Shown in pieces: positions 13,423 to 34,275 of a stretch of 64,000 nucleotides of DNA (position 1 is its first letter; each line of letters begins with the position of its first letter). A program made the translations under genes and the position numbers. The notes beneath the pieces were generated by a model that saw only the letters and a list, made by a program, of their open reading frames with translations, searched no databases and was not told where the DNA came from. This DNA comes from an uncultured Clostridia bacterium (lineage in GTDB: Bacteria > Bacillota > Clostridia > Lachnospirales > CAG-274): NCBI GenBank assembly GCA_947585865.1, contig CANPXH010000002.1, positions 1-64,000 on the forward strand. Reading direction: 5' to 3'.

Positions 13423-13455
13423 AAAAAGGCTCGCTCCAAAAGGATCGGGCCTTTT
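13423..13455. terminator. Terminator-like hairpin between convergent genes, beside repeat remnant D
   Basis: AAAAGGCTCGCTCC pairs with GGATCGGGCCTTTT with two mismatches. It sits between the ends of the genes at 12692 and 13560 and directly abuts repeat remnant D. An additional GGGCT/AGCCC hairpin (13398-13416) lies just before it. Confidence 0.55.
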
Positions 13456-13458
13456 CTG

Positions 13459-13508
13459 TGTGTAGATAAAGTCGACACGCTTGAAAGAAATGCTTGTATT
13501 TCTTTCAA
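13459..13508 (-). repeat. Structured intergenic repeat, remnant copy D
   Basis: On the minus strand this matches only the last two hairpins of copies A-C: TGAAAGAAAT-type arms (13481-13508) and a decayed GCGTGTCGA hairpin (13459-13480, now GTCGACACGC on the plus strand with a mismatched partner). The rest of the element is absent. It lies downstream of the minus-strand gene at 13560, in that gene's sense direction. Confidence 0.7.
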
Positions 13509-29461: not shown

Positions 29462-29462
29462 A

Positions 29463-29489
29463 AACGGACTGTCTTTTGACAGTCCGTTT
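29463..29489 (-). repeat. Terminator-like hairpin, direct repeat flanking copy C (right end of element)
   Basis: A hairpin with arms AACGGACTGTC/GACAGTCCGTT. It is identical over 27 bp to 29728-29754 on the other side of repeat copy C. The pair is in direct orientation. Confidence 0.85.
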
Positions 29490-29727
29490 CAGCGTGTCGA
29501 TAAAATCGACACGCTTGAAAGAAATGCTTGCATTTCTTTCAGTTGAATTAAGGTAGGAACCAGCCGTGTTTACTTATATTTTGGCATATTTGCCAAAATA
29601 TAAGTAAAGTTCCTGTCCTCGGAGGAAGTGAATTCCTCCTGCGGATTAAAGTCTGCGACGCTTTTTTTGCAGGCTGTTCTTTATTTTAATCCATATTTAC
29701 TGTCAAAATATTGTTTTTCGACAGTCT
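29490..29727 (-). repeat. Structured intergenic repeat, copy C
   Basis: A 238-bp copy read on the minus strand. In order from its 5' end: an AAACAATATTTTGA segment, AAAGAACAG, the conserved block AGCGTCGCAGACTTTAATCC, a GGAGGAA/TTCCTCC hairpin (29639-29621), AGGAAC, a perfect 18-bp stem (29608-29591 with 29586-29569), CACGGCTG (29568-29561), GTTCCT (29560-29555), a TGAAAGAAATGC hairpin with a 2-nt loop, and the GCGTGTCGA hairpin (29514-29492). It lies downstream of metY in the sense direction. The 18-bp stem differs from copy B in sequence but stays fully paired. Confidence 0.88.
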
Positions 29728-29754
29728 AACGGACTGTCTTTTGACAGTCCGTTT
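29728..29754 (-). repeat. Terminator-like hairpin, direct repeat flanking copy C (metY side)
   Basis: Exact 27-bp copy of 29463-29489 in direct orientation. It follows metY by about 109 bp. Between it and the metY stop another hairpin (CTCCGATAA/TCTCGGAG arms, about 29800-29835) may be the main metY terminator. Confidence 0.85.
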
Positions 29755-31393: not shown

Positions 31394-33973
31394 ATGATAT
31401 CAAGACCATGTAAAAAGATAATAGCCGCAACGCTGACGGCTGTCCTTGTATTTTCTTCTGTTACGGTACACTACTGTGCGGAGGAGATCGAAAGGACCGT
31501 GACTGTTTTTCACACAAACGATATGCACGGCAGCCTTATAGGCTCAGACAGCGTAATAGGTATCGATAAGGTATCGGCTCTTAAAAAGGAGACAGAGGGT
31601 TCTATACTTGTAGATGCAGGCGATGCCACACAGGGGGTTGCTCTTGCCACTCTTTCAAAGGGTGAAGATGTCATAGAACTTATGAATTCCGCAGGCTACG
31701 ATGTTATGGCGGCAGGCAATCACGAGTTTGACAACGGCACAGAGCATTTGAGCAAGCTTGTTTCCATGGCAAGCTTTCCTATCATATCAGCCAATACATA
31801 CCTGAACGGAAGGCCGTTGTTTGAAAACGAAAATTCAAACGGCAGCAATGTCATCATAGAAAGAAACGGCATAAAGGTGGGTATATTTGCGCTTACCACA
31901 TCCAACACAGCCACATCCACCAACCCAAAGGGTATCGTTGGCGTAGAATTTAAAAACGAAATAGAGACTGCAAAGGAACAGACGGCGCTCCTTGATGAGG
32001 AAGGCGCAGATGTTGTAATAGCAATAACACATATGGGTATAGACAATAACGAGTCCGACATCACAAGCTATGAGCTTGCTCAGGCTATGGCGGATACGGA
32101 ACTGGATGCCATAATAGACGGCCACAGCCATTCTGTGGTAAATGAAAAAATAGGCAATATAACCATTGCTCAGACAGGTACAGGGCTTGTCGATCTGGGC
32201 AGGATGGATATAACTGTAGACGAGCAGGGCAATACCGACATTGTGGAAACCATGCTTACAGCAGAGGATACCAAAAACGCTGCAGCAGATGAGACCGTAA
32301 CGGCAAAAATAGATGAAATAAGCTCAAAGCAGAAGGAAATGCTTTCAGAGGTAATAGGCGAGACCGAAGGCACTCTTTGGGGCGGCGCTATAAATCAGAT
32401 AGCCGAAGCCAGAGTAGGCGAGACCAATCTTGGCAGCCTTATTTCAGACAGTATATTATACAGCGTTAAGGACATATTGCCTGAAGAATATAAGGCTTTG
32501 CCCGTTGTTGCAGTGGAGAACGGCGGCGGCTTCAGGACATCTGTGCCTAACGGCAAGATCACAAGGGAGCATATAGTAAACACGTTGCCGTTTGCAAATA
32601 CTGTAATGTATAAGGTGATAACTCCCAATGTGCTTTATGCCGTGCTTGAGGGAGGAGTTTCATCGGTTAATTCACAGGACAAGGATACCGGATTTATGAA
32701 TGCCGCATATTCAGGCAGCTTTTTGCAGATAGGCGGTATGCGCTTTGAATACGATCCCAATGGGGAGACAGGCAATAAAGTAAAGGCTATATATATTGAC
32801 GGACAAACAGAGATGCTTGACAGAAACGATACCTCTTCAAATATAGTGCTCGGCTCAAACGACTATGTTATAGGCTCAGGCGCTCTTGAAAACATACCGA
32901 TATCAGGCGAGGGCAGCGGACTGAACGAAGCTGTCACAAGCTATATCGCACATATTACCGAAAACGGTACAAAGCCTATATCCATGCCCGTCACAACAGG
33001 CAGGATAAAGACGGTGGGCGATTATGTACCTAAGGATTATACGGCTCATGTGAGGATCAAAAATGCCGACGGTTCCACGGCGGCAGAGGGTACAAATACA
33101 GATGTGTATGTTGACGGAACAAAGACTGAGGGTATTATAGGTGCAGACGGTGTACTCGATATCCCGGTATCTGACGGACCTCACAGCATAAAGCTTTATC
33201 CCGAGCAGGCGGAAATTTATGTAAATAATTACAGCGGTGCGGGAGTTATAGAGTCATTCGGCACATGGAACGGCGGCTATCCGGTATTGCAGCTTGCAAA
33301 GACCGAAGCTTCAGAGACAACGACACAGAGCACGGAAGCCACGACTCAAAGCACCGAGGCTACGACACAGAGCACCGAGGCTACGACTCAAAGCACGGAG
33401 GCTACGACACAGAGCACCGAGGCTACAACGCAGAGCGGCGGCACATCATCCAATGGCAAACGGGATTACGGCGGTCATATATATGACAGACCCGATGCAG
33501 TAAAGAGCGAGACTTCATCGGAAACAACGACCGAAGAAAAAGAAGAAAGTCCTATAAGATCAGAGGTGAGGGTATCCGCAGGCAAGAGTGAAATATCCGT
33601 AGAGGATGATGTATATGACATAGATGCGGCGGCTTACATACAGCCGATATCACAGTCAATGCTCGTTCCTCTCAGATTCGTATCCGTAGCTATTGCAGGC
33701 AAGAATGTAAACAAGGCGGATAAGAGCTCGCTCGTGGAATGGGATGCCAATACAAAGACGGCATATATATATGCGGGCGAAAATATAATAAGCTTTACTG
33801 CGGGCAGCGATATTATGAAGATCGGCAACAGAAGCATCAAAATGAGCAACGGCGTAAAGGCCGAAATAAAGAACGAAAGGATGTATATACCTTTCAGAGC
33901 CTTGGGAGAAGCGCTGGATGTGGATGTAAAATGGAATGCCGAAACAAAGACTGCAATATATGCGCTCATGTAA
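31394..33973 (+). CDS. Secreted 5'-nucleotidase-family phosphoesterase with amine-oxidase-N-like C-domain
   Basis: An 859-residue exported protein. Signal peptide about 1-28. The metallophosphatase domain (about 32-290) has FHTNDMHG, DAGDATQG, AAGNHEFDNG and DGHSHS metal motifs. The 5'-nucleotidase C-domain (about 310-545) has GFRTSVPNGKI. A middle segment (about 560-640) is followed by a TTQSTEA repeat tract (about 643-681). The last 140 residues are the amine-oxidase-N-like module also found at the end of the protein at 6978 (LVPLRFVSVAIAGK, MYIPFRALGEALDVDVKWN). It probably hydrolyses extracellular nucleotides for salvage, which fits the purine enzymes downstream. The natural substrate is not proven. 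Confidence 0.85.
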   Translation: MISRPCKKIIAATLTAVLVFSSVTVHYCAEEIERTVTVFHTNDMHGSLIGSDSVIGIDKVSALKKETEGSILVDAGDATQGVALATLSKGEDVIELMNSAGYDVMAAGNHEFDNGTEHLSKLVSMASFPIISANTYLNGRPLFENENSNGSNVIIERNGIKVGIFALTTSNTATSTNPKGIVGVEFKNEIETAKEQTALLDEEGADVVIAITHMGIDNNESDITSYELAQAMADTELDAIIDGHSHSVVNEKIGNITIAQTGTGLVDLGRMDITVDEQGNTDIVETMLTAEDTKNAAADETVTAKIDEISSKQKEMLSEVIGETEGTLWGGAINQIAEARVGETNLGSLISDSILYSVKDILPEEYKALPVVAVENGGGFRTSVPNGKITREHIVNTLPFANTVMYKVITPNVLYAVLEGGVSSVNSQDKDTGFMNAAYSGSFLQIGGMRFEYDPNGETGNKVKAIYIDGQTEMLDRNDTSSNIVLGSNDYVIGSGALENIPISGEGSGLNEAVTSYIAHITENGTKPISMPVTTGRIKTVGDYVPKDYTAHVRIKNADGSTAAEGTNTDVYVDGTKTEGIIGADGVLDIPVSDGPHSIKLYPEQAEIYVNNYSGAGVIESFGTWNGGYPVLQLAKTEASETTTQSTEATTQSTEATTQSTEATTQSTEATTQSTEATTQSGGTSSNGKRDYGGHIYDRPDAVKSETSSETTTEEKEESPIRSEVRVSAGKSEISVEDDVYDIDAAAYIQPISQSMLVPLRFVSVAIAGKNVNKADKSSLVEWDANTKTAYIYAGENIISFTAGSDIMKIGNRSIKMSNGVKAEIKNERMYIPFRALGEALDVDVKWNAETKTAIYALM
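33320..33436 (+). repeat. In-frame 21-bp minisatellite coding TTQSTEA units
   Basis: Five full 21-bp units and one partial unit. Units 1, 3 and 5 begin ACGACACAG and units 2 and 4 begin ACGACTCAA, so there is a 42-bp higher-order period. A change in copy number keeps the frame and alters linker length by seven residues. Confidence 0.85.
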
Positions 33974-33985
33974 ATACGATATAAA

Positions 33986-34008
33986 GATCCTGTGAAAATC
34001 ACAGGATT
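33986..34008 (+). repeat. Terminator-like hairpin, direct repeat flanking copy B (left)
   Basis: GATCCTGTGA and TCACAGGATT arms with a 3-nt loop, 12 bp after the stop of the 5'-nucleotidase gene. It is repeated with one extra A at 34252-34275. It lacks a long T-run here, whereas the right copy has one. Confidence 0.8.
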
Positions 34009-34251
34009 CAAGCGTGTAGATAAACAATATTTTGATATAAAATATGAATTTTAAGTAAAGAACAGTTTGCAAAGAAGCGTCGCAGACTTTAATCCGCAGG
34101 AGGAATTCACTTCCTCCGAGGACAGGAACTTTTCTGTAATTTAGGCATTTGTGCCTAAATTACAGAAAACACGGCTGGTTCCTTCTTTAGATAACTGAAA
34201 GAAATGCCAGAAAGCATTTCTTTCAAGCGTGTCGATTTTATCGACACGCAG
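34009..34251 (+). repeat. Structured intergenic repeat, copy B
   Basis: A 243-bp element. In order: CAAGCGTGTAGAT, AAACAATATTTTGA, AAAGAACAG, GCGTCGCAGACTTTAATCC, a GGAGGAA/TTCCTCC hairpin (34099-34117), AGGAAC (34124-34129), a perfect 18-bp stem (34130-34147 with 34152-34169), CACGGCTG (34170-34177), GTTCCT (34178-34183), a TGAAAGAAATGC hairpin (about 34196-34225) and the GCGTGTCGA hairpin (34227-34249). No ORF is present. With its flanking hairpins and the promoter at 34281 it fills the 371-bp gap 33974-34344. Confidence 0.9.
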
Positions 34252-34275
34252 GATCCTGTGAAAAATCACAGGATT
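34252..34275 (+). repeat. Terminator-like hairpin, direct repeat flanking copy B (right)
   Basis: Same arms as 33986-34008, with a 4-nt loop and followed by a run of T, so it is a functional-looking terminator immediately before the xdh promoter. Confidence 0.8.

Follow-up and report, generated by a model that had tools for sequence, protein, structure and literature searches.

Group IIC introns are associated with transcription terminators. Among insertion sequences (IS), IS1272 and TnSha1 of the IS1182 family target hairpins of any sequence, terminators included, in both orientations, and IS1272 removes or replaces its target hairpin so that no duplication is left (PMC4923244, PMC5678879). 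In a cruciform model for these elements, joining of the transposon ends at the 5' feet of a stem-loop (pathway 'b') leads to its duplication; IS1272 itself was proposed to use the 3' feet, by which the hairpin is lost (PMC5678879). According to papers that cite its description (Calcutt et al. 1999), IS1630 of Mycoplasma fermentans, a member of the IS30 family, duplicates inverted repeats of variable length, and duplications of 16-26 bp are listed for the M. fermentans copies (PMC3317919, PMC7648426). Here we describe a short, structured and non-coding element found in several copies in a 64,000-nucleotide stretch of an uncultured Clostridia bacterium of the gut (assembly GCA_947585865.1, contig CANPXH010000002.1, positions 1 to 64,000), hereafter the window. 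The element inserts into palindromes that are unrelated in sequence and mostly terminator-like, in either orientation, and the whole palindrome is directly duplicated.

Hairpin duplication at the insertion sites

For 104 copies in which both ends were recognisable, we scored the best direct repeat between the left and the right flank. The score was at least 13 in 82 of the 104 and at least 16 in 78, and none of 2000 mismatched flank pairings reached 13 (maximum 12). The 78 repeats scoring at least 16 had units of 16-40 nt, with a different sequence at each site and mostly of terminator-like appearance. When a stem score of at least 6 was taken as palindromic, this applied to 91% of these units vs 6% after shuffling. 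An A- or T-tract bordered the hairpin in 64 of the 78 cases. In 20 of them the tract was compatible with transcription in the direction of the element, in 27 with the reverse direction and in 17 with either. There is thus no orientation bias (20 vs 27), and insertion is independent of the direction of transcription. Longer hairpins in the reconstructed empty sites went with longer duplications (r = 0.67; maximum of 2000 permutations 0.39), and the boundaries of the duplication fell near the stem base. Because the duplication scales with the hairpin, it does not reflect a fixed stagger.

Comparison of flanks across species revealed five orthologous empty sites with a single hairpin and without the element, plus a less clean sixth. 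The filled and empty loci are L011 vs L121 and L017 vs L282 (ATACGGATGATACCATCATCCGTAT), both with the filled site in the host genome, and L249 vs L297, L091 vs L300 and L111 vs L109; the less clean pair is L058 vs L281. These copies were used because the neighbourhoods of the two complete window copies, B and C, are not syntenic enough to reveal an empty site. Another copy of the host genome, L018, lies within a hairpin that belongs to a second repeat family, of which a sister genome has many element-free occurrences. The consensus of this target repeat family is CCGCGGCTGACAGCTCCCC...GGGGAGC(C/T)TTAGGT, and in this sister genome (G003) it is found at L293, L294, L298-L301, L310 and L311.

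An earlier note on this DNA, made from the letters of the window, had considered insertion into terminators with a target duplication of 23-27 bp and had proposed a search for further copies and a comparison of empty and filled sites. Insertion with target duplication is borne out, since the hairpin differs from site to site and the orthologous empty sites have only one, although the range given was too narrow. Further copies are numerous (about 30 in the host genome and 15-42 cores per same-genus genome), and the empty sites carry single hairpins as described above. The outcomes named as refuting, i.e., unrelated flanking hairpins in most copies or orthologous sites always carrying both hairpins without the element, were not seen.

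At L003 (C2:120547-120770 of the host genome), and possibly at L004, the bracketing hairpins share the same stem, but their loops are inverted relative to each other, which looks like a flip of one palindrome subsequent to insertion.

Copies in the window and their ends

Copies B (34009-34251, + strand) and C (29490-29727, - strand) represent, as the earlier note had recognised, one element in different hairpin contexts, each bracketed by its own duplicated hairpin. Both contain an exact match to the core GCGTCGCAGACTTTAATCCGCAGGAGG, where 0 would be expected by chance. Likeness of the two hairpins within a copy was also correctly noticed, and it is complete only for C, where AAACGGACTGTCTTTTGACAGTCCGTTT (29462-29489) and AACGGACTGTCTTTTGACAGTCCGTTT (29728-29754), a AACGGACTGTC-type hairpin, are identical over 27 nt. 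In B, GATCCTGTGAAAATCACAGGATT (33986-34008) and GATCCTGTGAAAAATCACAGGATT (34252-34275), a GATCCTGTGA-type hairpin, have a single difference, one A in the loop. The features of the window copies are as follows.

33986-34008, + strand: duplicated target hairpin of B, left copy (GATCCTGTGAAAATCACAGGATT)
34009-34251, + strand: element B, a non-coding chain of hairpins (folding z = -12.1)
34009-34024, + strand: left terminal repeat of B, CAAGCGTGTAGATAAA, which is right-end-like and not the usual CAGACTGTCGAAAAA
34079-34098, + strand: near-invariant core of B, GTCGCAGACTTTAATCCGCA
34099-34117, + strand: hairpin directly after the core of B (GGAGGAATTCACTTCCTCC), with strong covariation among copies
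34125-34182, + strand: long central hairpin of B, GGAAC...GTTCC
34196-34225, + strand: 3' hairpin of B, TGAAAGAAATGC...GCATTTCTTTCA
34227-34251, + strand: right terminal hairpin and terminal repeat of B, GCGTGTCGATTTTATCGACACGCAG
34252-34275, + strand: duplicated target hairpin of B, right copy, with a T-run after it
29462-29489, + strand: copy of the duplicated target hairpin of C
29490-29727, - strand: element C, with its core at 29640-29659 on the - strand (folding z = -10.3)
29728-29754, + strand: duplicated target hairpin of C, second copy, with 27 nt identical to the other
1-139, + strand: copy A, truncated by the contig start, with its own terminator-like target hairpin at 140-166
13460-13507, - strand: right-end-only remnant, adjoined by a terminator-like hairpin (about 13424-13455)

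The hairpin at 34252-34275 together with its T-run is likely the terminator of the gene at 31394-33973, just upstream of copy B. This gene contains a 21-bp in-frame tandem repeat at 33293-33457 that encodes a Thr/Glu/Ser-rich linker.

Left ends of the element follow CAGACTGTC(G/A)A(A/T)AAA, with CAGACTGTCGAAAAA as the common form, and can also be written as CAG(A)CTGTCGAAAAA. Right ends, read inward, are CAGCGTGTCGATAAA or AGGCTGTCGAAAAA. Left and right ends are hence imperfect inverted repeats (CAGACTGTCGAAAAA / CAGCGTGTCGATAAA), and in some copies, B among them, the left end resembles the right-end form. Remnants consisting of a right end only are frequent in the host genome, and left-end-only remnants were found as well. 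Some junctions lie inside hairpins, as would be expected from deletion at palindromes, and in two truncated copies the left hairpin is truncated, too.

At L046 / L253 (G002:C64:61-114), an inverted left end is also present outside the target hairpin (TCGACAGTCTG-hairpin-CAGACTGTC), which suggests that this hairpin received a further insertion that has since decayed. In other lineages (L093, L075, L144, L145, L069, L071) the core is kept and the ends differ, e.g., GGGGCTGTCGCATTAA...GCTTAATGCGACACCC; in L093 and L075 the core itself is altered from GTCGCAGAC to GCCGCAGGC.

Structured body and near-invariant core

Along the body of the element, hairpins follow one another in a chain whose modules can be replaced. 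Compared with shuffled sequences, copies B and C fold considerably better (z = -12.1 and z = -10.3, respectively), although the opposite strand folds about equally well. In an alignment of 26 diverse copies, standard pairs occupied 91% of the pair cells vs at most 48% when the structure was slid along the alignment, a measure that is favoured because the structure was drawn on one of the aligned copies. Changes on both sides of a pair were found in 128 cells of the same alignment vs 43 in shuffles. The predicted helices of the body are thus supported by compensatory changes. Mismatch types on the element + strand showed G.T over A.C by 36 vs 23 in unique contexts, a lean that we regard as a weak hint at RNA.

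Inside this changing body, the 20-nt core GTCGCAGACTTTAATCCGCA remains almost unchanged while the neighbouring sequence varies. Its invariance is partly given by construction, since most copies were retrieved with the core pattern; in a search of the host and sister genomes that allowed two mismatches, the matches were mostly exact. From an alignment of 37 core sequences, we derive a mini-hairpin GUC-GCA-GAC, a UUUAA linker, a UCC/GGA stem and a hairpin whose sequence varies freely, with 97.5% of the cells paired and, in two sequences, a U-A to C-G double change in the mini-hairpin. Rfam 15 gave no match at the gathering score for the window and 17 loci with diverse copies; weak matches scored far below.

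Several element types (L025, L027, L065, L079, L046) contain small hairpin modules, for example CTGGTC-stem-TGCTCGCC-ATGCA-CC and GCCAGCC..GGCTGTCCGATAAATCTTTCGGTGCAATGCTGG. Modules of the CTGGTC and GCCAGCC types are also found in unrelated repeats at contig ends (L200, L211, L213), as if these small hairpins were shared or themselves mobile.

Distribution

A search of the host genome yielded about 30 full or near-full copies besides the right-end remnants. The elements are about 210-410 bp in size and have no open reading frame (ORF) confined to them. With the core pattern, we found 32 cores in the host genome and 15-42 in each of four same-genus genomes. Scanning of genome contigs placed the core in at least 107 contig stretches from a dozen or more genomes, i.e., of uncultured Clostridia (several isolates named 'Lapin'), deer-gut Bacillota and a metagenome-assembled genome of Defluviitaleaceae; it is also present in the complete genome of Chakrabartyella piscis, Lachnospiraceae. 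Among 61 related genomes, 29 had a match, nearly all from the same family. A covariance model of the core found no match in 397 other genomes across the phylum under the stricter filters of that tool. From the family-bound matches and the negative search in the rest of the phylum, the element looks lineage-restricted. Plasmid and phage records gave no element match; one IMG/VR contig with phage genes has a copy, and among the ORFs of this contig no transposase was evident. At L028 and L029, two different sites, the copies are apparently identical over the element, which suggests recent movement.

Proposed insertion mechanism and putative mobilising enzyme

We consider it likely that the element is a non-autonomous DNA transposable element similar to miniature inverted-repeat transposable elements (MITEs), which takes palindromes as targets and duplicates them whole. 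A transposase supplied in trans, probably of the DDE type, would join the two ends of the element at the two 5' feet of the palindrome, which is probably extruded as a cruciform, and gap filling would then copy the stem-loop. With such gap filling, the duplication would be as long as the palindrome and have no fixed stagger. The two-fold symmetry of the target would explain the lack of a fixed orientation. As a hairpin is left on each side, this strategy should also leave the upstream gene with its terminator.

Several observations weigh against this proposal. The inverted ends are short and imperfect, and the near-invariance of an internal 20-nt core is not explained by a passive MITE. About a fifth of the copies have no clear duplication, some of them with unrelated hairpins on either side, and would need later decay or recombination. 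In L062 and L121, for example, the hairpin on one side is unrelated to that on the other, which is what recombination between copies would produce. The mobilising enzyme is hypothetical, because no transposase with matching ends was found in the host genome (the draft assembly may lack it), IS30 transposases (NF033563) were not found in this genome or in the four same-genus genomes, and a scan of 1.8 Mb revealed no repeated transposase-like ORF. Nor did a candidate transposase emerge from small contigs, contig ends or repeated ORFs. The left ends found in the host genome were those of known copies, and looser searches turned up only remnants of truncated copies and unrelated hits. No parent IS sharing these ends was found in the host genome or in the sister-genome stretches covered; this absence is no proof, as draft assemblies break at repeats. 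IS30 was rejected as mobiliser: it was not found in the genus, and some IS30 copies elsewhere in the family have unrelated ends. In two genomes of the family, G025 and G033, IS30-family transposase genes (L178, L189) are flanked by direct repeats of 16-17 nt, more than the few base pairs usual for the IS30 family, and their ends are unlike those of the present element.

A transposase of the IS1182 family might move the element instead, if it used the opposite feet of the stem-loop for joining and thereby duplicated the hairpin where IS1272 loses it. The indifference of IS1272 to primary sequence and orientation at its hairpin targets would suit the insertions seen here, and IS30, the other palindrome-targeting candidate, was not found in the genus; IS1272, however, deletes its target hairpin and leaves no duplication (PMC4923244, PMC5678879), and we regard this route as unlikely. 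It is still harder to reconcile the data with movement through an RNA copy, in which a structured RNA would be integrated at terminator hairpins by a reverse transcriptase, like a short interspersed element or a degenerate group IIC intron. The RNA-like structure with its compensatory changes and near-invariant core, the G.T over A.C lean of 36:23 and the common right-end-only remnants would agree with this. Yet the ends are paired inverted repeats, the insertions have no orientation bias relative to the terminator, no Rfam intron matched, and left-end-only remnants occur as well; moreover, the truncated left hairpin of the two truncated copies fits deletion and not the 5' truncation of reverse transcription. 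We thus hold an RNA-copy route to be very improbable.

The earlier note had offered the alternative that the element carries an end hairpin that is kept identical within a copy. In favour of flanking hairpins that belong to the element and are kept alike by gene conversion or template switching, the loops of the two hairpins sometimes differ or look inverted (L003, possibly L004), which shows that the arms of a palindrome do change once the element is inserted. Orthologous empty sites, however, have the hairpin without the element and so contradict this alternative, the hairpins of different copies are unrelated in sequence, and one copy occupies the hairpin of a different repeat family; there is hardly any chance that the hairpins are not target sequence. 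A further explanation concerns the body only, which might function as an RNA in its own right, with a regulatory or a selfish role, and be carried along by a MITE without taking part in movement. Compensatory changes, the near-invariant core and modules replaceable around this fixed core would all be expected of it, although sites after or between terminators are an unlikely place for an expressed RNA. This is possible, if not what we expect, and it is compatible with transposition by a trans-acting transposase except for the role of the core.

We infer that the structured body and core are kept by selection for a function, either as RNA or in recognition by the mobilising machinery. One may speculate further that the 20-nt core and the helices form an RNA, or a structured DNA, that is active in movement, for example as a cofactor guiding the integration enzyme to hairpins. 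To us this appears doubtful; if true, a mobile element without a gene would contribute its folded core to a machine that targets palindromes, in contrast to a passive MITE, for which the ends suffice. A near-invariant core within a fast-changing, modular element points to an undescribed RNA or protein-binding structure. Insertions rarely lead to duplication of a whole hairpin at targets that vary in length, and the repetition of this outcome in dozens of natural insertions at different sites with matched empty sites makes target choice by DNA structure testable.

Comparison with known systems

REP/BIME elements and derivatives of IS200/IS605 are without inverted terminal repeats and without target duplication, and the present element, which has inverted ends and a duplication, does not fit this class. 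A group II intron is not supported, given the lack of an Rfam match at the gathering score in the window and 17 diverse loci, and of an ORF. The comparison with group IIC introns that the earlier note had drawn is hence not upheld: the element differs from them in these two respects, in its paired inverted ends and in its large and clear target duplication. Its traits are those of a MITE, as it is short, present in about 30 copies in the host genome, without a coding region, and has imperfect inverted ends and a duplication in 82 of 104 copies. With bacterial MITEs (PMC10969869) it shares the short, gene-less, intergenic and multi-copy nature, inverted ends, flanking direct repeats and strong predicted folding. 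It differs from them by the variable duplication of a whole palindrome, the modular body, the near-invariant core and the failure of the searches to reveal a parent IS. The BOX elements of Streptococcus pneumoniae (PMC3049150) are likewise modular, strongly folded and non-coding, and presumed to be mobilised in trans; the passages considered here mention no insertion that duplicates hairpins, and by inspection their sequence and core are unrelated.

With regard to target choice, the element resembles IS1272 in using hairpins of any sequence in either orientation. IS1272 encodes a transposase and deletes the hairpin, whereas the present element has no gene and duplicates the hairpin in most copies. 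Duplication of a whole palindrome of variable length is shared with IS1630, according to the papers that cite its description; IS1630 is an autonomous element that has an IS30-type transposase and ends of 27 bp, in contrast to the gene-less element with short imperfect ends described here. The statement of the earlier note that no described family has this design hence needs qualification: the insertion outcome has a precedent in IS1630 and is foreseen in the cruciform model (PMC5678879), whereas the resources searched apparently hold no description of the family, of its modular and structured body or of its near-invariant core. In conclusion, these MITE-like elements constitute a new family that duplicates palindromes and has a structured core of unusual conservation.
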